Source of the DNA: Saccharomycopsis phalli
Lineage: Eukaryota > Ascomycota > Saccharomycetes > Ascoideales > Saccharomycopsidaceae
Assembly: GCA_020342235.1 (NCBI GenBank)
Contig: CP073212.1
Coordinates: 124,001 to 188,000, forward strand
Length of the DNA stretch: 64,000 bases
Reading direction: 5' to 3'
The position numbers were made by a program, and so were the translations under genes. Numbering within the stretch: position 1 is the stretch's first letter; each line of letters opens with the position of its first letter. A model generated the notes under the pieces. The model was not told the origin of the DNA. It saw only the letters and a program-made list of their open reading frames with translations, and did no database searches. Shown piece by piece: positions 13,447 to 54,835 of this stretch.

Positions 13447-14828
13447 ATGACGAGACCTCAGAACATTGGTATCAAAGCTATTGAGATATACATTCCGTCG
13501 GAGGTAAGTAACGGCCCGATTTCAGCGCAACTAACAGCCAGTACGTGAATCAGTCTGATTTGGAAGTGGCCGACAAGGTGTCTTCTGGGAAGTACACCAT
13601 TGGACTCGGACAGACCAACATGGGCTTTGTCAACGACCGTGAGGACATTTACTCGATGGCGCTTACCGTCACCAGCAAGTTGCTCAAGAACTACGGCATC
13701 GACCCCAGCTCTATTGGCCGGTTGGAAGTCGGCACCGAGACGTTGTTGGACAAGTCCAAGTCGGTCAAGTCGGTGTTGATGCAGTTGTTTGGAGCCAACA
13801 GCGACATCGAGGGCGTCGACACCGTCAACGCATGCTACGGCGGCACCAACGCCGTGTTCAACTCCATCAACTGGATCGAGTCTTCCTCGTGGGACGGCCG
13901 TGATGCGATTGTCGTTGCCGGCGACGTTGCAATCTACTCCCAAGGGGCTGCCCGGCCAACTGGAGGTGCCGGTACTATTGCGATGTTGATTGGCCCAGAC
14001 GCACCTATTGTGTTTGAGCCGGTCCGTGGGTCGTACATGGAACACGCATACGACTTTTACAAGCCAGACTTTACCAGCGAGTATCCAGTGGTGGACGGGC
14101 ACTTTTCGTTGTCGTGCTACGTCAAGGCATTTGACCATGCGTACCGGGCCTACTCCAAAAAAGCCGTCGCCAAGGGCTTGGCACAGAAGCCCGTGTCCAA
14201 GGATACCGTGGGCCAGGGCTTCTTTGACTACAACGTGTTCCATGTGCCAACGTGCAAACTCGTGTCCAAGACGTATGGCCGTCTTCTTTACAACGACTAC
14301 GTGTCGGACCCGAGCCTATACCCGGACGTCGACCCGTCGTTTGCCACAATCGACTACAACGAGTCGTTGCTCTCCAAGGGAATCGAAAAGACCTTTGTGG
14401 GTCTTTCCAAGGACTTGTACAAGCAAAAGGTCTTGCCCTCCATCACCGTGCCAACAAACCTCGGTAACACATACACCGCCTCTGTGTACGGAGCCTTGGC
14501 CTCGTTGCTCTACTATGTCGGTAGCGACGCCTTGCAGGGTAAGCGGATCGGCTTGTTTTCGTACGGATCCGGTTTGGCCTCGTCGCTTTTCTCGGTCAAG
14601 GTCGTGGGCGACTTGTCCAAGATCACCCGGGTCTTGGATATCGACCACAAGTTGAAGTCGCGTACCAAGAGATCGCCAGAGGAGTATCTTGCTGCGATTG
14701 ATTTGCGCGAAAGCATCCACTTGCAAAAGAGCTACGAGCCAAAGGGCTCCATCGACACTCTCAAGGAGGGCACCTATTACTTGGTGAGCATTGACGACAA
14801 GTTCCGCCGCAAGTATGAAACCAAATAG
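13447..14828 (+). CDS. ERG13: HMG-CoA synthase, two exons
   Basis: Exons are 13447-13503 and 13542-14828, giving 447 residues. The enzyme condenses acetyl-CoA with acetoacetyl-CoA to HMG-CoA, the first committed precursor of the mevalonate/ergosterol pathway. Exon 1 encodes [19 protein letters not shown] and exon 2 resumes at [14 protein letters not shown]; this junction restores the alignment with S. cerevisiae Erg13 (TRPQNVGIKGIQIYIPTQ, then VNQSELE). The nucleophilic cysteine is Cys117 in [10 protein letters not shown]. Other family stretches are [57 protein letters not shown] and YGSGLASS. The long N-terminal extension of S. cerevisiae Erg13 is absent, so the enzyme should be cytosolic. 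It appears to have no CTG codons, which fits a highly expressed CUG-Ser-clade gene. Confidence 0.97.
13504..13541 (+). other. 38-nt spliceosomal intron in ERG13
   Basis: It begins GTAAGT, has the branch sequence ACTAAC and ends GCCAG (13541), in phase 0. An AG three bases after the branch A is skipped and the next AG, seven bases after it, is used; only this choice restores the HMG-CoA synthase frame and sequence. Confidence 0.93.
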
Positions 14829-30129: not shown

Positions 30130-30270
30130 TGAATAGTTTGGAATATATTATGTGAAGTTTGTAGGAGTTGTTGGTCTAAAGAGCTACGGTACTTTGGTTG
30201 TGTAGAATGTTATAAAGAATGAGACCGGTAAAGGCAAAAGTTGTGGGAAAATGCAAAAGTCGTTGGGAAA

Positions 30271-30430
30271 GGCAAAGGTCCTCGGTAAAAGGCAAAGGTC
30301 CTCGGTAAAAGGCAAAGGTCCTCGGTAAAAGGCAAAGGTCCTCGGTAAAAGGCAAAGGTCCTCGGTAAAAGGCAAAGGTCCTCGGTAAAAGGCAAAGGTC
30401 CTCGGTAAAAGGCAAAGGTCCTTGGCAAAA
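30271..30430. repeat. 20-nt minisatellite, eight copies
   Basis: Seven identical head-to-tail copies of ggcaaaggtcctcggtaaaa and a slightly altered eighth (cttggcaaaa). A weaker precursor unit is visible just upstream (aatgcaaaagtcgttggg). Because 20 is not a multiple of three, all frames are mixed, and the three long minus-strand frames here are artefacts. Confidence 0.97.
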
Positions 30431-30721: not shown

Positions 30722-31948
30722 ATGAACTTCTTACGTCAGAGAAAAGATCACGAAGACGAGCGGGAAAGCAACGTCCACAAATCGCGGAAGCCTGCCAACA
30801 CGGCGTTCAAGCAGCAGCGATTAAAGTCATGGCAGTAAGTATTTGGAACCGGTCGAGTTTTCTAACATAGACCTATTTTGACGCCAAAGTCCGTCTTGCC
30901 ACTTCTTCTTGTGGTTGCGGTGATCTTTGCGCCGCTAGGAATCATCATGGTGATCACAGCGTTCAATGTGCAGCAGGTGGTGATAGATTACACCCAGTGT
31001 GAGTCCTTGGCTTCTTTTGATTCGTACTCGCTGATCACCAGCAAATTCTACAAGCAGCATTTTCAAAAAAGCTCCGACAGCGCTCCAAAGTGGATCCTCC
31101 AAAACACCACGGTGCAGTTGGACGGCGGAAATAGTTTCAACACTACACAGTGCCGCGTGCAGTTTAACATCCCAAACGACATAAAGGCACCGGTGTTCTT
31201 GTACTACAGACTCACAAACTTTTACCAGAACCACCGGGAGTATGTGGAGAGTTATGACTTGCCGCAGATTGAGGGAAAGGCCACGAAAGCAAAGGACCTT
31301 AGTCTGAAATGCAGCCCACTCAAAACCTCGAGCGACGGGAAAATCATCTACCCTTGTGGTCTCATTGCCAATTCCTTCTTCAATGACACGTTTTCCAACC
31401 CAGTGCTTCTCAACCCACAGGGCGCAGGGTCCACCGAACAAGTGTACAACATGAGCAGCGACGACATCTCGTGGTCAGCTGACCGACGCCGGTACAAGAA
31501 GACTACCTATAATGTGTCTGATATCGTTCCGCCGCCAAATTGGCAGGTGAGGTTTCCTCAGGGATACACTGAGCTGAATTTACCGGATTTTTCCCAGGAC
31601 CAGATATTCCAAAACTGGATGCGCACGGCTGGACTTCCGCAGTTTCTGAAGTTGGTTGCGAAAAACACAGTTGATAAGTTGGGAAACGGGAACTATCGGA
31701 TCGACATTAACTTGAACTACCCAACAAGCGTATATGGTGGCACAAAGTCGATTGTCTTGACCACCAGCAGTCTCATTGGAGGAAGAAACCTCAGCTTGGG
31801 GATTGGGTACCTTGCTGGTGCCGCCATCTGCGTGCTCTTTGGCATTGTGTTTTTGATGAAGCAGATTATCCGGCCGAGAAAGATTGGCGATAACAAGTAC
31901 TTGGATTCTGGTAAGGATACAGGAAGGGGATTTAGGGACGTTCTTTAG
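30722..31948 (+). CDS. CDC50: Cdc50/Lem3-family P4-ATPase beta subunit, two exons
   Basis: Exons are 30722-30834 and 30871-31948, giving 396 residues. Cdc50 proteins chaperone type-4 P-type ATPases (phospholipid flippases such as Drs2) and stay in the complex at Golgi/endosome or plasma membrane. Exon 1 encodes a basic cytosolic tail ending SRKPANTAFKQQRLKSW; splicing creates Q-PILTPKSVLPLL, which reproduces the invariant family signature (NTAFRQQRLKAWQPILTP). The first membrane helix is VLPLLLVVAVIFAPLGIIMVI. A large lumenal domain follows with several N-X-S/T sites and paired cysteines. It contains APVFLYYRLTNFYQNHREYV, YPCGLIANSFFNDTF, NWMRTAGLPQFLKL and YPTSVYGGTKSIVLTTSS. The second helix (GIGYLAGAAICVLFGIVFLM) precedes the short C-terminal tail. 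Cdc50, Lem3 and Crf1 are not clearly separable by eye; Cdc50 is my best guess. Confidence 0.93.
30835..30870 (+). other. 36-nt spliceosomal intron in CDC50
   Basis: GTAAGT donor, TCTAAC branch sequence and ATAG acceptor, with the acceptor G five bases after the branch A. Splicing joins TGG-CA to A-CCT-ATT and restores the family signature WQPILTP; without it the frame hits TAA at the donor. Confidence 0.95.
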
Positions 31949-33639
31949 ATGTGGATAGGTGGTTAAGAGGGAAAAGAGAACAAGGAGAGGAAAAGAGAAC
32001 AAGGAGAGGAAAAGAGAACAAGGAGAGGAAAAGAGAACAAGGAGAGGAAAAGAGAACAAGGAGAGGAAAAAGATTGTACGAAAGTATAAATGGGAAATGT
32101 CGAATAAGCCAAGGAGAGTTGCGTGTCCAAATACGTAAAGAGAGTGTGTAAAAATATGGCTGTGTAATGGTATATATTTAGGTAATCTGTATTGATGTAT
32201 TGATTATTTGCCCGGTTCAGCCGCGCAAATTGACGGTTTAAGTGATTAGGATAATATATATGCATCTGTAAATGTGTAGCATTTAATGTTTTCAAGCTGG
32301 AAGTCACTCGTCGTTTTGCAAAGAGTTGTACATCTATTAAAACTCGGCCAACTGAAGCCAAAAGACCTGCGCCTCATGGTTTATCTAAATCAAGTATTTA
32401 AAAGCTATTATATTCTGGTATATGTCAAATCCTTGCACCATTTTCCTGGATCAATGCCATATGCAGTGATGGTGTCTGGTGAAATTTCAATCCAAACCAT
32501 GTAAAATACATTGGTCCAGTAATATATTTGCACAAATAATGTCAAAGAGCTGTACCTTTTCCTGTGCAGTTCCGTTGCTGATTGTGCTATTAGTTTCAAA
32601 ATAAGCAATACTGAAAATAGAGATGGAAGTACAATTCATGTTTATTCGCTGGATATTAAACATTCCAAGTTATAGACGGCTAACGAACAAGACGCTCAGA
32701 AGAAAGATATACGATATTCAGCAGAGATGCCATTCTAAAGACACATGGCATACAACATTGGGATCGATTTGGTACAATTGTTATTAGGTTCAGTCCGACC
32801 TCAGACAAGGAGAGATGTAATTTGTTGCATAAAAACGGTGATATGCACTGCACATCTGAATCAATCATCAGACAGGGGTATAAAACCAAAGTTTTATTGT
32901 CAAACTATGATGCCCATGCATGTTCCTCGTGCTACTTTGTCAGATGATGATGTGAATATTCCAATGGGAGTCTGGAAATGTAGCAAAGTTATCCATGTTA
33001 CGCCTATTCTGACGCAGAGTACCTCAGACATTGGCAAACGGAAATGTGTGACTCTATAGAAATTAAATGTAATTTCAGCTCCATGGTTTATTGCCAAGGC
33101 TCGAGGAATACAACTGGACGACGATTATGAAAGACTATAGAATCTGAAGTAAGAAATTTGTAAAAGGAAGTTGTTCTACAAAGTGCAGTTGAGGTATTCT
33201 CATCAATCTAATGGCTAGAAATTGTGACCCAATCTTCGACAGTACAATGTTCCAATGAAGTGTTTTCTCTGATTTGCTCCAAAGAATACGAGCCTTGGCT
33301 TTTAAAGTGGATGGATGTAGTATGACGGTGGTTTGTATCTGTATTAAAAGAAGCCCGTTGACTTTTCAAACACTGACCAAAGGACAACCAAAAGACAACC
33401 AGAAGACAAAGACGAACAGAAAATCGTCACTTCATCCCAGCATTTGTTTAAAATGACATTTATTTGAATGTTATCCACCAGTCTCGTTTGAGTCAGATTC
33501 ATGCGATAGCAAATGACAAGGTATAACCACTTGCTGAACATCGTGAGTGCAAACCAAGCACCATTTATGACGGTTGGTACGACTTTTCCACGGCTTGACA
33601 TTTGTACATATTGATAATATATTTATTTTGTATAAAAAG
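31949..33639. other. Intergenic stretch between convergent genes
   Basis: About 1.7 kb. It has the 19-nt array just after CDC50 and otherwise unremarkable AT-rich sequence with frames of 60-105 codons on both strands, none with recognisable content. A short ccaaaggacaaccaaaagacaac echo lies at about 33376-33402. I see no RNA gene. Confidence 0.5.
31972..32066. repeat. 19-nt purine-rich minisatellite, five copies
   Basis: Five identical units of aaaagagaacaaggagagg starting 24 bp after the CDC50 stop. It is another array close to a gene's 3' end. Confidence 0.95.
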
Positions 33640-36600
33640 CTACACAGGAACCTGGTACTCGAGTTTCTCCTCCTCTGGAACGTTATAGTACTCGTCCTCA
33701 TTGTACCCCGACTCCTCAATCAAGTAGTTATCCTGAGCAGTGGCATTCTTGGCAACCAATTCGATGATACGGCGGATGATTGGCAAGTTCAACCACGCAG
33801 GGACATAGGCTTCAAGACGGATAAAAGGCCGTAAGTTGACTCTTCTGAACGGGTCATCAAACTGGTTTGACTCGTTATGAGACGTTGGCTCGAAAAAGTC
33901 GTCAGTGGCGCCAGAGGACGAGTGCTTGACCTTCTCAGCGACGATTAGCAAGACGTCTTGTGGGACTGGGGTCTCATAGTCGGCGACAAAGTACTGGCTG
34001 ATCAACTTCTGGATCTGGGACGGTTTCAAAGCATAGCAGATTTCGTAGATGATCTCAATGTCTTCGACGGTGTTTTTACGGAGCTGCAACAACTTGGCAG
34101 CCTGAAGAAGGTGCACCAAGTAGCTTGAGCCGTCGACAATGTCATGAGCTTTGCACCACTCCTCCAAGCGGGTGACGTTGTAGTTCAACTGCAAGCCACG
34201 CTTCCAGCTGAGGAAGTTGCGGCGCATGATCAAGTCGTTGAAGCAGTTTGCGTCGACAAAGCGGAGCAATTCGCTGATGACCTCGTTCTGGACCTCAGGC
34301 TCGATGAAGTACGTCTTCATGGACCAGAACACGTTATTGAAGAAGCTGATGATGTCGTCCATCTTGTACGGCGTGGTCTGGGAGAAGACCTTGGACAAGA
34401 ACGGCGAGGTTTCTGGAGCCATGAACCCAGGAAGCGACTGGGACAAGACAACTGCGCTGACGGCCTTCTTTTCGAGGTCCTTTTCCATCTTCTTCATCCA
34501 CAAGTTGTAAATGTTGTAGCTGAGAGACTCAAAGTCCTCCTTGACCACGGCCACCAAGTTGAGGTACTCATCATATTCCGGTTCGCTCAACTCGTTGCTG
34601 ATGCTGTCGTTGGCGATGATGGTGGACTGGGCGTAGGACACAAACGAGTACAACTCGTGGGTGTTGCTCAACCAGAAAGCCCCGTGGCTGATGACGTCCT
34701 CGTCCTTCAAAGTGGTGACGATGGTTTGGATCACCGAAAGCACTTCGCCCAAGAAATCTTCGGACTCCTTGGTCAAGCCAAGACGCCACATGTCGCTGAG
34801 GATGATGATGATGATCCGTGCAGGGAACAAGACCTCTTTGCGGGTCAAGTCGGCGGCGACTCCGGCCGGTGGGATCTTCAATCCCTTGAGAAGCCCGCCG
34901 ATGATTTCCTTGTGCAACTCCTTGCTCTCGCCGAGCAACTTCCACAACTCCTCGTTGATCGCCGAGAGATTGCTCTCATCGTTTTCTTGCGGCATAAGCG
35001 ACACCGCACGTCCAATCTGGCCGTACTCAAGCGGCTGCTGGTTCTTGTACATCTTCCGGTAGTCGCCCCCCTGGATGCCCTGCCCAGTGAGAGCAATGAT
35101 CTCCTGCTTCAACTGCGTGATCGTCTTCTTCAAGTCCTGCTCGTTGTTATCATACTTGGACAACTGCTCGCGCGCCTGGTTCAACTCCTCCACGTTCACC
35201 TCCACAGTGTGCCGCAACTCCTTCTGCTGCTTCATCAACTGCTGCACCTTGCTCTCGGATTCCTTGTAATCCAACTTTGTCTGGCTCAACTCCGCGCCCA
35301 ACTGCTCGATCTGCGCACTGTATTCCAGCTGCACCGTTCCAAGCTTCTTGGCATGGGCCTTTTCCTGTGTCGCCAACGCGTCGCGGCTCGAACTGTCGTC
35401 CTGGAGCTTCCGCTGGAGACCTTCAATCTCCTTGTGCAACCGCTTGTTGTCGGTGATCTTCGCAGTCAACGACTGCGTCAACTCAATGACCTTGTTCTCC
35501 AACCGGTAACTCACCTCCTGCAAATGGTTCACCGACTTGGCCTCCTCCCGGAGCTTGGCCAACTCCCGCACCGCCAACTTCCGCCGGATCCAGCTCTGGA
35601 TCACCACCACCGACCGGAGATAGTGCCGGAACTTCTTCCGGTTCGCGTATCCGCGCCACGCGGTCTGGATGATGATCGCAGACTGCTGTCTCACAATCGA
35701 CTCCATCGACGACCGGCTGTTCTTGGCACGAATCAAACTCTGGAGTCGCACCACCGTGCTCTGGGCACTCAAGAACCGACGACGCACCAAGTGGCCCCGG
35801 AACAACGACTGTAACACCGTCGCCAGATGCGTCTTGATCTCCTGCTCGATCTGCGACCGCCGGTTGAACCCTCGTACAAGACTCTGGAGCAACACCACCG
35901 ACTCTCGGGTCTTGAGATACTCCCGTCGGTAGTACTGGCACCGGATATTCTTCTGGATCATCACCGCTGCCGCATACAACTTGTTGGTCCGCAACTTCTC
36001 AAGGTATCCCAACATCCCGGCCTTGAAAAAGATCTTCGTCTCACCCAACTGGTACTTTTGCTCGTCCTCAACCGTGATCTTCAATATCTTGTCGCACAAC
36101 GCCCGCACATCCTCTGGCGTACTCTTGCGCCCACTCAACACGTCCACATACTCTTCCGACGAAACAAGAATGTGGTACCGCTGGCCAAACTCCTCATATG
36201 TCCATCGGGTCGGAAATCCAGCACATGAGATCCGGATCGTCTCCAAGACACCACATGCTCGCAACTGCGACAACACCATGAGCGAGTCAAACTCCCAGGC
36301 CTTCTTCTGCTCGTTGGGCTTGATACACCGGATATAGTGCACATTGGTACCGTTGATCGTCGCCATCAAGTCAATCAAAGACTTTTTGAAGATCAGCCCC
36401 AAGGTCGGCTTCTTCACGCCTCCACCAAGATTAAGTCCGCCGACACGCCCAAACTTTGGTTTGGTCTTTGCCGCTTCCGCATCCTTTTGCTTCTGCACCT
36501 CCTCGTTCTGCTTCTCAACCGTGCTGATAATCTCCTTCAACCGCTCATTAGTGGTATCCTTCAACGTCTCCAAGTGGCCGTCACTAACCGTGTCACGGTT

Positions 36601-42057: not shown

Positions 42058-43176
42058 ATGGGTATTTATTTAACTTTGGTACGTATGAAAAATGACTTGG
42101 GAAGCTATGGAAAGTAGTAGTGGGGAAAGAAGACGCAGGCAAGATTACGGATTGAATTGTATGATGAGATTGGATTGGCAATGGGTAGAAAAGTCTGAAT
42201 TGTGAATGTGGCCAAATGAACATGCAATTGATCATGGATGGATTCCACTCAATTGATCATGGATGGATTCCACTCAATTGGATTATAAATGTCTTGAATA
42301 GTTGGCCGTGAATTGAATCATTTGTCGTCAGTTGGCTGCGAATTTAAGATCATGTGCACGACCATGGATTTAACAAGGCACATGTATTCAGTCATGTGCT
42401 TTGATTGAATGTTCTTGGGTGATATACAATCAAATCATCAGCTTCAATTGAGTATAGTGATGTGAAAATATGTTCTTATAGTGGAAGGCTGGCCCCAATC
42501 ACATTCATTGCACCTTTCATTATCCACTTACTCCTGTACCCAAAACATTGCTCATCACATTGTCAATCCAGCTCACCAGTGCACCGCTATCCATTTGTAT
42601 TCTTCCACATCCTTTTGTTCTATTCTAACTTAGATTTTTGGGGTCCTAGTTGCCGAAATGGCAGCGGTGTCGTTGCTCGTCGCTCCTTTACCGCATACTG
42701 TCCGTAAGCAGCTTGTGAAAATTGCGCTTATTTTATGGAACTCAGTCCAGGTACGTGTGACTTTGTATGTCTCTGGGACTTTGATTGGTCTTTTGTTTGT
42801 CGATGCCGCACAACGCTCGTTCAAGTATCCTGTCTTTGAGAACAATCCAGTTATCGTGGACAGCAACTTGGCCAAGGGTTATAACGAGTTGCTGAACAGC
42901 GACTACTTGGCCAAGAAGTTCTACCACCAACGGAACTTTTATCTTTCTGGTATCGTGATCTTCTTGTCGTTGGCCATTCCTACTATTATCAATTTGCTCA
43001 ACAAAATCATCAAGTGGGACGAAAAGTTTGAAAAGGAGGGTGCTGGAGACTCCAAGACGTTGAAGAAGGAGTTGGATCGCTACAATGCAGAGATTGAGGT
43101 CTTGGAAAAGAGCATTGGTGAGTTGAAGGGTAAGATTGCCAGTAAGGAGACCAAGAAAGACAAGAAGAACGAGTAG
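42058..43176 (+). CDS. YET3: BAP31-family ER protein (Yet), two exons
   Basis: Exons are 42058-42078 and 42634-43176, giving 187 residues. Exon 1 encodes only MGIYLTL; exon 2 starts IFGVLVAEMAAVSLLVAPLP. The spliced N terminus matches yeast Yet3 (MSIYYSLVFALLLAEVFIFSVLALP) residue for residue in pattern, whereas starting at the ATG at 42658 would delete most of the first membrane helix. Further family features are the second helix (VTLYVSGTLIGLLFVDAAQRSFK), the third (FYLSGIVIFLSLAIPTIINLL) and a C-terminal coiled coil (LKKELDRYNAEIEVLEKSIGELKGKI) with a Lys-rich KKDKKNE ER-retrieval-like end. BAP31 proteins act at the ER in membrane-protein sorting and translocon association. Which of Yet1/2/3 is closest cannot be decided by eye. 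Confidence 0.9.
42079..42633 (+). other. 555-nt intron in YET
   Basis: GTACGT donor, TTCTAAC branch sequence and TTAG acceptor five bases after the branch A, in phase 0. The interior includes a 25-bp tandem duplication (42225-42274, starting caattgatcatgg). Confidence 0.88.
42225..42274. repeat. 25-bp tandem duplication inside the YET intron
   Basis: Two perfect head-to-tail copies starting caattgatcatggatgg, followed by the first bases of a third. Confidence 0.95.
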
Positions 43177-47128: not shown

Positions 47129-50100
47129 CTATAAGAACAAAGCAGGAAGAAGCAAGAAAGTAAGAATGTTGACCCATAAGAGGTACGAACTGTTAACACC
47201 CGATGGAACAGCACCGTTAAAAAATGGAATCGACCCATTAGTGGTGTTCCAGTTGGAGAAGATGTTTGCGGTGCTAGGCACCATAATAGAAACATGTGAG
47301 TTGCTAAATGTGGTATGTGGCGAAATGAAAGATTGTTTTGGATCATTCTTCTGGTTATTGTCATTGTTCAGGTTATTATTGCCAGGAGCATCGCCATTGT
47401 TATCACCATTGCCATTGTTCAGGTTACCAGAACCGTTTGAGTCGTTTGAACCATTTGAGTCGTTTGAACCATTTGAGTCGTTTGAACCGTTTGAATTGTT
47501 TGGATTGTTGGAAGGATCATTCGAATTTGAACTATTTGAATCAGGGTTGTTCAGGTTATTCGAATTTGGATTGTTTGAATCAGCATTGTTCAGGTTGTTT
47601 GAATTTGGATTGTTCAGGTTATTCGAATTGCTTGAGTCAGGGTTGTTCGAATTGTTTGAATTTGGATTGTTCAGGTTGTTCAGGTTGTTCAGGTTGTTCA
47701 GGTTATTCGAATTTGGATTGTTAGAATCAGGGTTATTCAGGTTACTCGAATTTGGATTGTTAGAATCAGGGTTATTCAGGTTATTCGAATTTGGATTGTT
47801 CAGGTTATTCGAATTTGGATTGTTTGAATTTGGATTGTTTGAATTTGGATTGTTCAGGTTGTTCGAATTTGGATTGTGCAGGTTATTCGAATTGTTTGAA
47901 TCAGGGTTGTTCAGGTTGTTCGAATTTGGATTACTTCCAGCACTGTTTGAATTACCGCCAGGGTTATTCGAGTTGCTTCCAGCACCATTTGAGTTGCTTC
48001 CAGAGTTACCATTTCCAGAGTTGCTTAAATCATTCGAACGGTCACCATTTTGATTTGGTACATTTGGCGCATTAGGTATTTGACCAGGCTGCCCTGTGGC
48101 ATTTGGTAACGTAGCATTTGCCAGAGAGCTTCCTGAGATCGAGTTACTGTTTGGAGAAACAGTCGAATTAGACAGGCTAGGACCATGACTACTCTGTGGA
48201 GACACATCCGCATTATGCAATTGGTTTGGCTTCCCAGTGGCATTTGGTAAAGTGCCGTTCGATGGAAAACTTCCAGAAGGGGCGTTGGAGTTTGGAACAG
48301 TTGAATTGGAAAGGGCTGCAGATGCACTGGTCGCCGAGTTGGAATATGGTGATGCCGGAAGGATACTGGAAGAATTAGAAATAGAACTTGAAGCGGCTGA
48401 AGTTGAGCTAATACTGGAACTAGAACTAGAACTGGAACTGGAACTGGAACTGGAACTGGAAGATTCAGTAGCACTGGTAGATGACTCAGAAGCACTAGTA
48501 GAAGATTCAGTAGCACTGGTAGAAGACTCAGTAGCACTGGTAGAAGATTCAGTAGCACTAGTAGAAGATTCAGTAGCACTAGTAGAAGATTCAGTAGCAC
48601 TGGTAGATGACTCGGAAGCACTAGTGGAAGATTCAGTAGCACTGGTAGAAGATTCAGTGGCACTGGTAGATGACTCAGAAGCACTAGTAGAAGATTCAGT
48701 AGCACTGGTAGAAGACTCAGTGGCACTAGTGGAAGATTCAGTAGCACTGGTAGAAGATTTAGTAGCACTAGTAGAAGACTCAGTAGCACTGGTAGATGAC
48801 TCGGAAGCACTAGTAGAAGACTCAGTGGCACTAGTAGATGACTCAGTAGCACTAGTAGAAGATTCAGTAGCACTAGTAGAAGACTCAGTGGCACTAGTGG
48901 AAGATTCAGAAGCACTGGTAGAAGACTCAGTGGCACTAGTGGAAGATTCAGTAGCACTGGTAGAAGATTCAGTAGCACTGGTAGAAGACTCAGTAGCACT
49001 AGTAGATGACTCAGAAGCACTAGTAGAAGATTCAGTAGCACTGGTAGATGACTCAGAAGCACTGGTAGAAGATTCAGTAGCACTGGTAGATGACTCAGAA
49101 GCACTGGTAGAAGACTCAGTGGCACTAGTGGAAGACTCAGTGGCACTAGTGGAAGATTCAGTAGCACTGGTAGAAGATTCAGTGGCACTGGTAGATGACT
49201 CAGAAGCACTAGTAGAAGATTCAGTAGCACTGGTAGAAGACTCAGTAGCACTAGTAGAAGATTCAGTAGCACTAGTAGAAGATTCAGAAGCACTGGTAGA
49301 AGACTCAGTGGCACTAGTGGAAGATTCAGTAGCACTGGTAGAAGATTCAGTAGCACTGGTAGAAGACTCAGTAGCACTAGTAGATGACTCAGTAGCACTA
49401 GTAGAAGATTCAGAAGCACTGGTAGATGACTCAGTAGCACTAGTAGAAGATTCAGTAGCACTAGTAGAAGATTCAGTAGCACTGGTAGATGACTCAGTAG
49501 CACTAGTAGAAGATTCAGTAGCACTAGTGGAAGATTCAGTAGCACTAGTAGAAGATTCAGTAGCACTAGTAGAAGACTCAGTGGCACTAGTAGAAGACTC
49601 AGTGGCACTAGTAGATGACTCAGTAGCACTAGTAGAAGATTCAGTAGCACTAGTAGAAGACTCAGTGGCACTAGTGGAAGATTCAGTAGCACTAGTAGAA
49701 GATTCAGTGGCACTGGTAGAAGACTCAGTAGCACTAGTAGAAGATTCAGTAGCACTAGTAGAAGATTTAGTAGCACTAGTAGAAGACTCAGTAGCACTGG
49801 TAGAAGATTCAGTGGCACTGGTAGATGACTCAGAAGCACTAGTAGAAGATTCAGTAGCACTGGTAGAAGACTCAGTAGCACTAGTAGATGACTCAGTAGC
49901 ACTAGTAGAAGATTCAGTAGCACTAGTAGAAGATTCAGAAGCACTGGTAGAAGACTCAGTGGCACTAGTGGAAGATTCAGTAGCACTGGTAGAAGATTCA
50001 GTGGCACTGGTAGAAGACTCAGTAGCACTTGATGAACTTGATGATTCAGAAGCACTAGTAGAAGACTCAGTAGCACTAGTAGAAGATTCAGTAGCACTAG

Positions 50101-53100
50101 TAGAAGATTTAGTAGCACTAGTAGAAGACTCAGTAGCACTAGTAGAAGATTCAGTGGCACTGGTAGATGACTCAGTAGCACTAGTAGAAGATTCAGTAGC
50201 ACTAGTAGAAGATTCAGTAGCACTTGATGAAATTGATGACTCAGTAGCACTAGTAGAAGATTCAGTAGCACTAGTAGAAGACTCAGTGGCACTAGTGGAA
50301 GACTCAGTAGCACTAGTAGATGACTCAGTAGCACTAGTAGAAGATTCAGTAGCACTGGTAGATGACTCAGAAGCACTGGTAGAAGACTCAGTGGCACTAG
50401 TGGAAGATTCAGTAGCACTGGTAGAAGATTCAGTGGCACTGGTAGAAGACTCAGTAGCACTAGTAGATGACTCAGTAGCACTAGTAGAAGATTCAGTAGC
50501 ACTAGTAGAAGATTCAGAAGCACTGGTAGAAGACTCAGTGGCACTAGTGGAAGATTCAGTAGCACTGGTAGAAGATTCAGTGGCACTGGTAGATGACTCA
50601 GAAGCACTAGTAGAAGATTCAGTAGCACTGGTAGAAGACTCAGTAGCACTAGTAGATGACTCAGTAGCACTAGTAGAAGATTCAGTAGCACTAGTAGATG
50701 ACTCAGTAGCACTAGTAGAAGATTCAGTAGCACTAGTAGAAGATTCAGTAGCACTTGATGAAATTGATGACTCAGTAGCACTAGTAGAAGATTCAGTAGC
50801 ACTAGTAGAAGACTCAGTGGCACTAGTGGAAGATTCAGTAGCACTAGTAGAAGATTCAGTGGCACTGGTAGAAGACTCAGTAGCACTAGTAGAAGACTCA
50901 GTGGCACTAGTAGATGACTCAGTAGCACTTGATGAACTTGATGACTCAGTAGCACTAGTAGAAGATTCAGTAGCACTAGTAGAAGATTCAGTGGCACTAG
51001 TGGAAGATTCAGTAGCACTTGATGAAATTGATGACTCAGTAGCACTAGTAGATGACTCAGTAGCACTAGTAGAAGATTCAGTAGCACTAGTAGAAGATTC
51101 AGTGGCACTAGTGGAAGATTCAGTAGCACTTGATGAAATTGATGACTCAGTAGCACTAGTAGATGACTCAGTAGCACTAGTAGAAGATTCAGTAGCACTA
51201 GTAGAAGACTCAGTGGCACTAGTGGAAGACTCAGTAGCACTAGTAGATGACTCAGTAGCACTAGTAGAAGATTCAGTAGCACTAGTAGAAGATTCAGTAG
51301 CACTTGATGAAATTGATGACTCAGTAGCACTAGTAGAAGATTCAGTAGCACTAGTAGAAGACTCAGTGGCACTAGTGGAAGACTCAGTAGCACTAGTAGA
51401 TGACTCAGTAGCACTAGTAGAAGATTCAGTAGCACTGGTAGATGACTCAGAAGCACTGGTAGAAGACTCAGTGGCACTAGTGGAAGATTCAGTAGCACTG
51501 GTAGAAGATTCAGTGGCACTGGTAGATGACTCAGAAGCACTAGTAGAAGATTCAGTAGCACTGGTAGATGACTCAGAAGCACTGGTAGAAGACTCAGTGG
51601 CACTAGTGGAAGACTCAGTGGCACTAGTGGAAGATTCAGTAGCACTGGTAGAAGATTCAGTGGCACTGGTAGAAGACTCAGTAGCACTAGTAGAAGATTT
51701 AGTAGCACTGGTAGAAGATTCAGTAGCACTAGTAGAAGATTCAGTAGCACTGGTAGAAGACTCAGTAGCACTAGTAGATGACTCAGTAGCACTAGTAGAA
51801 GATTCAGTAGCACTAGTAGAAGATTCAGTAGCACTTGATGAAATTGATGACTCAGTAGCACTAGTAGAAGATTCAGTAGCACTTGATGAACTAGATGATT
51901 CAGTTTCACTAGTAAGACTGGCAGTGGTTGGTGTGACAACAGACAACAGACTTACTGAATCAGTAGAATTTGAATAGGCAAAAGAGCTTGTCAAACTGGT
52001 AGAACTGGCGGAATTGACAGAACTAATTGAGTCTGATGAAGTCAATGAAGTGGACGAAGTGGACGAAGTTGATAAAGTTGAAGAACTTGAAAGTGTAGAA
52101 GAACTTGAAGAACCAGTAGAACTGATCAAGCTGGTAGAACTGGTAGGACTGGCAGACTCAGTAGAAATAGTAGATTCAGCAGAAGTAGTAGAATTGATCA
52201 AACTGGTAGAGCTGGCAGATTCAGTAGGAATAGTAGATTCAGTCAAGCTAGTAGACTCAGTCAGACTAGCGGATTCAGCAGAAGTAGTAGAATTAATGAA
52301 ACTTGAACTGATTGATTCAGTCAAACTAGTAGATTCAGTCAGACTAGTAGATTCAGTCAAGCTAGCAGAATCAGTCAAACTAGTAGATTCAGCAGAAGTA
52401 GTAGAATTAATGAAACTTGAACTGATTGATTCAGTCAAGCTAGCAGAATCAGTCAAACTAGTAGATTCAGCAGAAGTAGTAGAATTAATGAAACTTGAAC
52501 TGATTGATTCAGTCAAGCTAGCAGAATCAGTCAAACTAGTAGATTCAGCAGAAGTAGTAGAATTAATGAAACTTGAACTGATTGATTCAGTCAAGCTAGC
52601 AGAATCAGTCAAACTAGTAGATTCAGCAGAAGTAGTAGAATTAATGAAACTTGAACTGATTGATTCAGTCAAGCTAGCAGAATCAGTCAGACTAGTAGAT
52701 TCAGTCAGACTAGTAGATTCAGTAAGACTAGCGGATTCAGCAGAAGTAGTAGAATTAATGAAACTTGAACTGATTGATTCAGTCAAGCTAGCAGAATCAG
52801 TCAGACTAGTAGATTCAGTCAGACTAGTAGATTCAGTAAGACTAGCGGATTCAGCAGAAGTAGTAGAATTAATGAAACTTGAACTGATTGATTCAGTCAA
52901 ACTAGTAGATTCGGTCAAACTAGTAGAATCAGTCAGACCAGTAGATTCAGTCAAACTAACAGATTCGACGGAACTAGTAGAACTTGCTGATTCAGTTGGG
53001 CTTGTTGGACTAGTAGAAATTAAAGCTGTGCTAGAAGTTGTTTCTGCGGTTAGGGACATAGTACTCTGAGACTCTGAAGACCCTGATGCAGAGGAATCAC

Positions 53101-54454
53101 CGCTTCCGCCCAACTTACAAACCAACAACAGACCGTCTCTAATACCAGCTGGGTAATATCCTTTGAACATATTTGGAAAAGGACTTTTGAGGACGTCCAA
53201 TGGCCACCAGCCACATGTCATTCCAAAGCCCAAGAATGAATAGTGAAAAGCAGGAACTGTCGAAGCACTGTCCGAAAGAGTCCAGTCCAAGCCGACGACT
53301 GTCCAGTTGAATGTTGGTGTGAGATCTGCCCCAGTAAGTCCTGGAAGAGAGATACTAAGTTGAGCAGTTGTCCAGTTAAAATCGCTAGACGCTGACACGT
53401 TGAATGGCCAATCAGGAAGGTCAGTAGGAAAAGCAATAGAGGATGGCACGGTAATAGAAGGCAATCCAATAGAAACACTAATAGAAGGTAATCCGATAGA
53501 AGGCACGGTAATAGAAGGCAAGTCAATAGAAGGTACACTAATAGTAGGCAATCCGATAGAAGGAACACTAATAGTAGGCAAGCCAATAGAAGGCAAGCCG
53601 ATAGAAGGGATATCAATAGAAGCACTGGCTGAAGCAGTAGCTTCACCGATGGAAACACTAATAGAAGGTAATCCAATCGATGGAATACTAATAGAAGGTA
53701 ATCCAATAGAAGGCAATCCGAAAGACGGTAACCCAATAGAAGGGATATCAATAGAAGCACTTGCAGAAGCAGTGGCCTTACTTATGGAAACACTGATAGA
53801 AGGTTCGACGATGGAAACACTAGTAGACTCGCTGATTGAGACACTGATTGAAGGCTCGATGATCGATATACTGGCAGACTCACCGATTGAAAATCCAATG
53901 GATGGCACGCCAACAGTAGGAACACCGACTGGAAAATCAATGGTCGGTACGCCAACTGGAAAATCAATGGTAGGCACACCGACAGAAAAGCCAATAGAAG
54001 GCTCGGCAATGGAAACACTTGTAGATTCACTGATTGAGACACTGATGGAAGGTTCGAGAATCGAAACACTGGTAGCCGTACTCATTGTAACTCCAATGGT
54101 AGGGACCCCGACCGAGAACCCAATCGAAGGAACTCCGATGGAAAATCCAAAAGAAGGCTCGATAACAGCATTTGCGCTCACTGTAGTACTTGTTGAAGAG
54201 CCAAATATCCCATTAAAAGGCCAGTCCCATTTTGCGTTTGCTTTTAGTGCTGCCCGAGGAGGTTTCAGAGCAGATGTTGTTGGAGTCGCCGACTGTTCTG
54301 GAAGCAAGTCTGACTGTTCTGACTGCTTGGATTGACCCTGTTGTGAATCTGACGGGCTAGTGGCAGTGGATATCGTGTCGCTAAGCGAGGAGTTGTCGTA
54401 CTGAAGCCCGTTGACAACAAGGATAAGGAGCCACAAGGTCAGAAACCGTAGCAT
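47129..54454 (-). CDS. Giant repeat-built GPI-anchored cell-wall protein (adhesin-like)
   Basis: The start at 54454 (MLRFLTLWLLILVVNGLQ, a signal peptide) gives 2,441 residues; the 65 codons upstream are basic and Cys-containing and would bury the signal. Architecture: a Ser/Gln/Pro-rich stretch (18-75); KWDWPFNGIFG; a region of roughly five-residue repeats PSIGL/PTISV (about 99-345); DWPFN again, then a small domain with Cys414 and Cys446 and Trp-rich FNWTTAQ/FNWTVVGLDWTL (about 348-450); SLTEST-type repeats including a 38-39-residue module with ISSSFINSTTSAES (about 468-800); roughly 160 copies of SSTSATE and variants (about 850-1990); an Asn/Ser/Pro repeat (about 2155-2340); and a hydrophobic GPI signal (SSYLLWVNILTFLLLPALFL). 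Many Leu in the Asn repeat are CTG and so are Ser. It should be covalently linked to wall glucan and heavily O-mannosylated. The N-terminal domain is not one of the adhesin folds I know. Confidence 0.9.
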   Translation of the reverse strand: MLRFLTLWLLILVVNGLQYDNSSLSDTISTATSPSDSQQGQSKQSEQSDLLPEQSATPTTSALKPPRAALKANAKWDWPFNGIFGSSTSTTVSANAVIEPSFGFSIGVPSIGFSVGVPTIGVTMSTATSVSILEPSISVSISESTSVSIAEPSIGFSVGVPTIDFPVGVPTIDFPVGVPTVGVPSIGFSIGESASISIIEPSISVSISESTSVSIVEPSISVSISKATASASASIDIPSIGLPSFGLPSIGLPSISIPSIGLPSISVSIGEATASASASIDIPSIGLPSIGLPTISVPSIGLPTISVPSIDLPSITVPSIGLPSISVSIGLPSITVPSSIAFPTDLPDWPFNVSASSDFNWTTAQLSISLPGLTGADLTPTFNWTVVGLDWTLSDSASTVPAFHYSFLGFGMTCGWWPLDVLKSPFPNMFKGYYPAGIRDGLLLVCKLGGSGDSSASGSSESQSTMSLTAETTSSTALISTSPTSPTESASSTSSVESVSLTESTGLTDSTSLTESTSLTESISSSFINSTTSAESASLTESTSLTESTSLTDSASLTESISSSFINSTTSAESASLTESTSLTESTSLTDSASLTESISSSFINSTTSAESTSLTDSASLTESISSSFINSTTSAESTSLTDSASLTESISSSFINSTTSAESTSLTDSASLTESISSSFINSTTSAESTSLTDSASLTESTSLTESTSLTESISSSFINSTTSAESASLTESTSLTESTIPTESASSTSLINSTTSAESTISTESASPTSSTSLISSTGSSSSSTLSSSSTLSTSSTSSTSLTSSDSISSVNSASSTSLTSSFAYSNSTDSVSLLSVVTPTTASLTSETESSSSSSATESSTSATESSISSSATESSTSATESSTSATESSTSATESSTSATESSTSATESSTSATKSSTSATESSTSATESSTSATESSTSATESSTSATESSTSASESSTSATESSTSASESSTSATESSTSATESSTSATESSTSASESSTSATESSTSATESSTSATESSTSATESSTSATESSTSATESSISSSATESSTSATESSTSATESSTSATESSTSATESSTSATESSTSATESSTSATESSISSSATESSTSATESSTSATESSTSATESSTSATESSISSSATESSTSATESSTSATESSTSATESSSSSSATESSTSATESSTSATESSTSATESSTSATESSTSATESSTSATESSTSATESSISSSATESSTSATESSTSATESSTSATESSTSATESSTSATESSTSATESSTSASESSTSATESSTSATESSTSATESSTSASESSTSATESSTSATESSTSATESSTSATESSTSATESSTSATESSTSASESSTSATESSTSATESSTSATESSTSATESSTSATESSTSATESSISSSATESSTSATESSTSATESSTSATESSTSATESSTSATKSSTSATESSTSATESSTSASESSSSSSATESSTSATESSTSATESSTSATESSTSASESSTSATESSTSATESSTSATESSTSATESSTSASESSTSATESSTSATESSTSATKSSTSATESSTSATESSTSATESSTSATESSTSATESSTSATESSTSATESSTSATESSTSATESSTSATESSTSATESSTSATESSTSATESSTSATESSTSATESSTSATESSTSASESSTSATESSTSATESSTSATESSTSATESSTSATESSTSASESSTSATESSTSATESSTSATESSTSASESSTSATESSTSATESSTSATESSTSATESSTSASESSTSATESSTSASESSTSATESSTSASESSTSATESSTSATESSTSATESSTSATESSTSASESSTSATESSTSATESSTSATESSTSATESSTSASESSTSATESSTSATKSSTSATESSTSATESSTSATESSTSASESSTSATESSTSATESSTSASESSTSATESSTSATESSTSATESSTSATESSTSATESSTSASESSTSATESSSSSSSSSSSSSSSSSISSTSAASSSISNSSSILPASPYSNSATSASAALSNSTVPNSNAPSGSFPSNGTLPNATGKPNQLHNADVSPQSSHGPSLSNSTVSPNSNSISGSSLANATLPNATGQPGQIPNAPNVPNQNGDRSNDLSNSGNGNSGSNSNGAGSNSNNPGGNSNSAGSNPNSNNLNNPDSNNSNNLHNPNSNNLNNPNSNNPNSNNPNSNNLNNPNSNNLNNPDSNNPNSSNLNNPDSNNPNSNNLNNLNNLNNLNNPNSNNSNNPDSSNSNNLNNPNSNNLNNADSNNPNSNNLNNPDSNSSNSNDPSNNPNNSNGSNDSNGSNDSNGSNDSNGSGNLNNGNGDNNGDAPGNNNLNNDNNQKNDPKQSFISPHTTFSNSHVSIMVPSTANIFSNWNTTNGSIPFFNGAVPSGVNSSYLLWVNILTFLLLPALFL
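47440..47990 (-). repeat. Asn/Ser/Pro coding repeat
   Basis: Units of 6, 9 and 12 residues of the type NSNN-x-NNP, where x is CTG in most copies. Read as Ser, the whole region is built from Asn, Ser and Pro with occasional Asp. At the GSNSNGAGSNSNNPGG end the units become Gly-rich. Confidence 0.9.
48470..51910 (-). repeat. 21-nt coding satellite, about 160 copies of SSTSATE
   Basis: 3.4 kb of a 21-nt unit (plus-strand gtagcactagtagaagattca) with silent and near-silent variants. Variant units encode SASE, SATK, and the shifted SSISSSATE, which marks six-residue insertions. Long blocks of variants recur in the same order, so units have been copied in blocks. All six frames lack stops here, which creates long spurious ORFs on both strands. 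Confidence 0.97.
52140..53050 (-). repeat. SLTEST coding repeats and 38-residue module
   Basis: A six-residue unit (SLTEST/SLTDSA) combined with ISSSFINSTTSAES into a larger module of about 75-120 nt, repeated about seven times between 52250 and 52910. Middle copies (52395-52680) are practically identical. The Leu position alternates between TTG and CTG. Confidence 0.93.
53420..54160 (-). repeat. PSIGL/PTISV coding repeats
   Basis: About 15-nt units encode P-S/T-I-G/S-L/V/F, interrupted by VSISESTSVSI and ATASASASIDI spacers that themselves recur two to three times. Identical larger blocks (IDIPSIGLPS) occur near 53600 and 53740. Confidence 0.88.
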
Positions 54455-54835
54455 GTGGAAAGAATAGTGAGGAAGAAAACGGCGAGGAAACGAGGTGAAA
54501 AGAGCTAAAAGTGGTAGTGATAGTGAGACCTTTTTTTTTCGACAACAGGGATCGTTGCGTTTTTTTTTACTCATCAGCAACATGGTATTACATGACATCG
54601 CCGCATGTTGCTTATAGTGCCTGCGACATTCACCCGATTTGGTAAGCAATCAAACCCGGAATTCAGGATATGGTCTTGTCCCACCAGATCTCGGCACCGC
54701 TTTACAAAAATTATGCCACACTCTATAATAGGAGTCGTGGGGAAGGTTGAGGCAATTGGTATTACTTCAAGGCAGTCATTTGGCGTCCGTTTACAGTCAC
54801 AATTAGACTGGGTATCCTATTTCTGCAGCCAAACC

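Follow-up and report, generated by a model that had tools for sequence, protein, structure and literature searches.

Introduction

Very short spliceosomal introns are known from several eukaryotes: Irimia & Roy (2008, PMC2483917) give a mean of 35.8 nt for the introns of Encephalitozoon cuniculi, about 25 nt for many of those in Trichomonas, and about 19 nt for those in the nucleomorph of Bigelowiella. In Yarrowia lipolytica, the smallest introns measure 41 nt and the commonest sizes are 41-60 nt (PMC2911113), and in 72.5% of the introns a single base separates the branch motif from the AG (PMC13309789). For yeasts with the CUG-Ser code, the branch-acceptor spacings listed by Irimia & Roy are 3 in C. 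guilliermondii, 4-5 in C. lusitaniae and 7-8 in D. hansenii. Human introns are reported to need about 50 nt between donor and branch, and a distance of 35 nt abolished assembly on one substrate (PMC6692369). A short branch-acceptor distance has been linked to U2AF1 (PMC5499181); since Hooks et al. (2014, PMC4202332) report U2AF1-bearing species with long branch-acceptor distances, a causal role of U2AF1 is unproven. A preference for A at donor position +4 is in turn associated with the retention of METTL16 and SNRNP27K (PMC10581693).

The intron studied here is 36 nt long and lies in the CDC50 gene of a yeast, within a 64-kb stretch of genomic DNA that we analysed and call the window. It belongs, very probably, to a class of short introns found throughout the genome. 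The kind of intron is already known; going by the reports cited, the class extends to shorter introns than those of Yarrowia and lies under the human limit. It resembles Y. lipolytica in its peak at short sizes, fused branch and acceptor, CTAAC core and strong donor, but the donor is GTAAGT instead of GTGAGT, the introns read in the class measure 35-46 nt, and the gap between CTAAC and AG is not mostly one base, being two bases in CDC50 and most often three in the class. An ACTAAC branch placed 3-5 bases before the AG is shared with C. guilliermondii and C. lusitaniae, members of the same genetic-code group, although those samples comprise 13 and 10 introns with lengths of 65 and 98 (a column we take to give the median), against a median of 40 nt here that is limited by our search pattern. 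E. cuniculi and Trichomonas, too, have very short introns in which the branch motif is conserved, but these are unrelated lineages. As in the human short introns that depend on Smu1 and RED, the donor-branch distance appears to be the limiting parameter; it spans 28-38 nt among the 46 introns supported in this genome, compared to the human value.

A preliminary description had placed the CDC50 intron close to the smallest size physically open to spliceosomal introns; with the shorter introns reported by Irimia & Roy, it is near the floor of its own class only. Its size had also been called well below that typical of budding yeasts, which is a relative statement given the Yarrowia values, and the short branch-acceptor spacing in a CUG-Ser genome, put forward as a contrast to Yarrowia, has precedents in the CUG-Ser spacings already published by Irimia & Roy.

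Results and Discussion

The 36-nt intron of CDC50

CDC50 is encoded on the forward strand of the window. Exon 1 (30722..30834, 113 nt) starts with the ATG at 30722 and ends in phase 2, and exon 2 (30871..31948) runs to the end of the stop codon; joined, they form a frame of 396 aa. The phase 2 intron between them occupies 30835..30870, exactly as first described, and reads GTAAGTATTTGGAACCGGTCGAGTTTTCTAACATAG. It begins with the donor GTAAGT (30835..30840), which recurs throughout the genome-wide class, and contains the branch motif CTAAC (30862..30866) with the putative branch A at 30865, followed by the acceptor TAG (30868..30870), so that two bases (AT) stand between CTAAC and the AG. GTAAGT and CTAAC are 21 bases apart, the branch A stands 30 nt from the donor G, and the acceptor G at 30870 lies five bases past the branch A. 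The earlier picture of a short donor-branch distance and of a branch and acceptor that are nearly fused is thus accurate.

Removal of the 36 nt restores a conserved protein. In a phmmer search of PDB sequences, the spliced product matched S. cerevisiae Cdc50 with E 2e-127, in a single alignment that spans query residues 20-395 and is gapless at the junction, and the Pfam CDC50 profile scored 335.9 bits. The junction falls within RLKSWQPILTP, which corresponds to RLKAWQPILSP (6psx/6roh), RLKAWQPILTP (9dzv) and RMRAWQCVLTP (6lcp) in CDC50 chains of the PDB. The WQPILTP motif is therefore restored and conserved, as had been noted, but it is not invariant, since S. cerevisiae Cdc50 has WQPILSP and 6lcp has WQCVLTP. 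If the intron is retained, an in-frame TAA follows directly behind Gln38 (...KSWQ), ending the protein after 38 residues; splicing would thus be required for a functional Cdc50. The GT-AG ends, the donor and branch consensus, and a protein that removal restores and retention breaks are all those of a U2-type intron. The full intron motif matches twice in the window; dinucleotide shuffles averaged 0.18 matches (sd 0.48), and 2 of 100 reached at least two. That this is a genuine intron, as originally proposed, is well supported by the sequence evidence.

We also considered whether folding might shorten the intron further. Folding against shuffles gave no support for an intron-shortening hairpin (MFE -2.2 kcal/mol, z 0.87), as 163 of 200 shuffled sequences folded equally well or better, and the idea was dropped.

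CDC50 lies between two different tandem arrays. The upstream array (30226-30430) repeats a 20-bp unit about 8-10 times, and a perfect one directly past the stop codon (31970-32070) has 5.3 copies of a 19-bp unit. Elsewhere in the window, a 556-aa open frame with 35 CTG codons (34144-35814, forward strand) runs antisense to myosin V and is probably a shadow frame, and a 2489-aa open frame (47129-54598, reverse strand) has the GLTT repeat as its sole Pfam match at a threshold of E 0.001.

Two further introns in the window

The HMG-CoA synthase gene (13447..14828, forward strand; Pfam HMG_CoA_synt_N) holds a sibling short intron of 38 nt at 13504..13541 on the same strand, which shares its donor and branch motif with CDC50. 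The spliced protein covers positions 1-174 of the 174 in HMG_CoA_synt_N, compared to 44-174 for the unspliced reading frame. A much longer intron of 555 nt (42079..42633, forward strand) is found in a homologue of Bap31/YET3. It has the form GTACGT...CTAAC-TT-AG, with a two-base gap between CTAAC and AG equal to that of CDC50. Its removal joins MGIYLTL, which makes up the whole of the first coding exon, to IFGVLVAEM; the spliced N-terminus matches profile positions 1-47 of Pfam Bap31, while the unspliced reading frame begins at profile position 16. The idea that all introns of this genome are short is ruled out by this 555-nt intron. Taken together, the 38-nt and 555-nt introns suggest that branch-acceptor spacing and donor-branch spacing are separate constraints.

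The HMG-CoA synthase intron also bears on the choice of acceptor. An AG adjoins its CTAAC directly; splicing there would break the frame, with a stop after 6 codons, while the AG four bases past CTAAC keeps the frame, which stays open for at least 60 codons. The adjoining AG thus appears to be skipped. Among the 72 places of the genome-wide sample described below, 5 have such an adjoining AG, and in 3 of these (HMG-CoA synthase, L043 and L090) splicing to it would lead out of frame or into a stop; a fourth case, L071, is weakly decided (10.4 vs 7.0 bits), and for the fifth, L053, the frame test does not discriminate.

A genome-wide class of short introns

The pattern search proposed in the preliminary description, GTAAGT-N15-30-CTAAC-N1-5-AG, gave 196 matches in the 14.15-Mb genome, compared to 42 for the same pattern read backward. 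Scaling the window shuffles (0.18 per 64 kb) to the genome predicts about 40, in agreement with the reversed control. A frame test was applied to 72 distinct places among the matches listed of the 196: contig C1 contributed 29 of its 30 listed places, C2 and C3 their first 21 and 22, and C4 none. The codon model was trained on 53 long open reading frames (111,513 bases); to pass, a place had to reach a total of at least 10 bits, with at least 5 bits and at least 20 codons downstream, and its unspliced frame had to be broken.

At 46 of the 72 places, splicing joins two open, codon-biased frames. Decoys rarely pass: 2.4% of 1903 random GT-AG pairs spaced 34-46 nt apart, and 15 of 576 (2.6%) donor-like decoys lacking CTAAC. 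Three of the 26 failing places have no possible upstream coding exon, and the remaining failures may be introns in 5' UTRs, introns next to weak exons, or chance matches. A frame-shifted AG shortly downstream also passes in 5 of the 33 passing places that have one; the acceptor is thus not settled by this test in every case.

The 46 supported introns are 35-46 nt long with a median of 40 nt, a median and upper end set in part by the pattern, which allows 29-48 nt. The spacing between GTAAGT and CTAAC is 19-29 bases, which puts the branch A at intron base 29-39, and the gap from CTAAC to AG is one base in 1 intron, two in 1 (CDC50), three in 27, four in 8 and five in 9. CDC50, with 21 bases between donor and branch motif, a gap of two and a frame score of 21.7 bits, falls within this class. 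It had been presented as exceptional, a view that does not hold: two supported introns are shorter (35 nt), seven including CDC50 are 36 nt long, and eight have fewer than 21 bases between donor and branch motif. Neither its length nor its donor-branch spacing sets the CDC50 intron apart; only its two-base gap is unusual.

As defined here, by a fixed donor, a fixed branch motif and a length limit, the class speaks to introns with these signals and is silent on those with others, and only the window's three introns are backed by protein homology. When 258 kb were searched openly with many donor and branch combinations, 255 candidates came up, 20 of them listed with CTAAC; none of the counts given here draws on this search. 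In the same 258 kb, an acceptor-anchored search returned nine places, six of which have a GTAAGT 35-47 nt upstream among their top choices (in C1 coordinates, 94592, HMG-CoA synthase, CDC50, 216906, 231596 and 253308); as it missed the Bap31 intron, this search is not a census. A literature search, with subscription papers mostly outside its reach, found, among the papers listed, no publication describing the intron class of this genome.

Alternative readings of the CDC50 insert

Other splice choices were compared at CDC50 with the codon score. When the donor was fixed at GTAAGT, four further acceptors downstream scored 15.1, 0.6, 1.4 and 15.9 bits, compared to 21.7 for the proposed one, and the two best of these work only in another phase. 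When the acceptor was fixed instead, GTTCAA at 30805 (22.3) and GTCATG at 30826 (23.1) slightly outscored GTAAGT, so the codon score alone does not pick the donor; the choice follows from the conservation of FKQQRLKSWQ and from the donor consensus. Despite their marginally higher scores with an unchanged acceptor, the donor at 30805 would delete FKQQRLKSWQ and that at 30826 would delete SWQ, and neither GTTCAA nor GTCATG is a consensus donor. We therefore regard it as very improbable that a different donor or acceptor is used. Even less credible is a reading of the 36 nt as a small insertion into a CDC50 copy undergoing decay. A second CDC50-family gene does exist at C6:814841-815752, but the exons flanking the insert are open, codon-biased and highly conserved, and the insert carries all three splicing signals. 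The second gene itself sits in a 426-aa open frame.

The in-frame TAA met immediately upon retention could instead point to a regulated intron, whose retention lowers CDC50 expression in some conditions, and Yarrowia introns typically give a premature stop when retained (PMC2911113). A retention stop is nonetheless present in 37 of the 46 class members, and such stops come largely from the letters of GTAAGT, CTAAC and TAG and from the filter used; in addition, the consensus signals of the CDC50 intron suggest efficient splicing. Regulation by retention thus seems improbable to us, if less so than the two readings above. We are confident that CDC50 carries here a constitutive U2-type intron, an ordinary member of a class of very short introns of nearly fixed form.

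Splicing factors and genetic code

Replacing GTAAGT by GTATGT in the pattern gave 40 matches against 28 in the control, an excess of 12 compared to 154 for GTAAGT, which argues that A at donor position +4 is strongly preferred. The genome has a match to the METTL16-type methyltransferase profile PF05971 (C2:367400-368146, best 93.5 bits) and one to the SNRNP27K profile PF08648 (76.3 bits). Orthology of the former to METTL16 is likely at most, as PF05971 also matches in bacteria. With the +4A preference and both matches present, the genome fits the +4A group of PMC10581693 as that source describes it.

A U2AF1 homologue, as linked to short branch-acceptor distances, is also present and is 53% identical to S. 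pombe U2AF23 across residues 16-185 (E 1.3e-61). In S. cerevisiae, the second-step factors Slu7 and Prp18 are dispensable at short distances. Both are retained in this genome, and their loss along with the short branch-acceptor distance is thus rejected; a TAA that seems to interrupt the Slu7 match is most plausibly Slu7's own stop after ...KRYG. A search with the RED_N profile found no match in the genome, and the control genomes were equally silent.

The CUG-Ser code ascribed to the genome from the outset is well supported by the residues that face CTG codons, as judged by eye from the top PDB alignments displayed for CDC50, MetRS and myosin V. In CDC50, codons 92, 183, 273 and 297 face Asp, Thr, Glu and Tyr; in MetRS, 481, 523 and 717 face Ser, Ser and Val; and in myosin V, 44, 81, 413, 497, 650 and 840 face Glu, Ala, Ala, Thr, His and Ala. 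Thus, the 13 codons face 3 Ala, 2 Ser, 2 Thr, 2 Glu and one each of Asp, Tyr, His and Val, and in no case Leu. This count omits codons outside the printed alignments (MetRS 8 and 121, myosin 1006) and two CTG codons of coproporphyrinogen oxidase located between gaps.

A floor for the donor-branch distance

Varying the spacing between GTAAGT and CTAAC over the whole genome reveals a sharp lower edge. There are 8 matches against 37 in the reversed control for 0-14 intervening bases and 3 against 9 for 15-18 bases, or 11 against 46 below 19 bases, while at 19-30 bases the count becomes, by subtraction, 193 against 33. Spacings of 31-60 bases yield 57 matches against 87; 23 of these are 47-50 nt long and the other 34 longer, a distribution resembling the long end of the class on top of background. 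The distance from donor G to branch A in the class is thus at least 28 nt, an estimate that applies to GTAAGT donors and CTAAC branch motifs only. As the matches below 19 bases are fewer than in the control, the control may overstate the true background. The rarity of GTAAGT/CTAAC pairs fewer than 19 bases apart also hints at avoidance in addition to the floor.

We suggest that splicing of the class could proceed as follows. The introns consist of GTAAGT, at least 19 free bases, CTAAC, usually three bases (two in CDC50) and AG, with a tail of sizes to about 50 nt. The donor would be read by U1 and then by U6, for which the METTL16-type and SNRNP27K genes are retained, CTAAC would pair with U2, and the AG immediately behind the branch might be read by U2AF1. 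In the second step, the first AG located a base or more past CTAAC would be taken and an adjoining one skipped. Two separate constraints would then act on the introns: branch and acceptor lie close together in the short introns and in the 555-nt intron alike, and the donor-branch floor of about 28 nt is probably the least spacing that seats both U1/U6 and U2.

The floor might instead be historical or selective, reflecting drift to a standard size or deletion bias in place of a steric limit. The data come from a single genome, only GTAAGT donors and CTAAC motifs were counted below 19 bases, and shorter introns are spliced in other eukaryotes (Irimia & Roy 2008, PMC2483917), all of which favours this view. 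Against it stand the sharpness of the edge, from far below the control at 0-18 bases to far above it at 19-30, and the minimum donor-branch distance reported for human introns (PMC6692369). We consider a historical or selective origin possible but somewhat doubtful, and a steric floor remains our preferred explanation. A stronger proposal, which we put forward tentatively and regard as rather unlikely as a whole, is that the spliceosome of this yeast accepts 28-38 nt between donor and branch as normal, far less than the roughly 50 nt reported for human extracts, with a sharp floor at 28 nt and a separate rule of short branch-acceptor spacing that extends to the 555-nt intron, in a compacted B-complex geometry.

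Conclusions

The mechanical list of open reading frames truncates CDC50, HMG-CoA synthase and the Bap31 homologue at their N-termini, and gene finders that are not tuned to such introns may likewise cut true proteins short at this end. On its own, the CDC50 intron adds little; the useful object is the class, with its excess of about 150 matches over the control. Its abrupt start provides an estimate, 28 nt, of the least donor-branch spacing tolerated by a spliceosome of this lineage, and the yeast concerned lends itself to direct comparison with S. cerevisiae. If the compacted geometry is real, the B complex of this yeast would be tighter than that of human or of S. cerevisiae.
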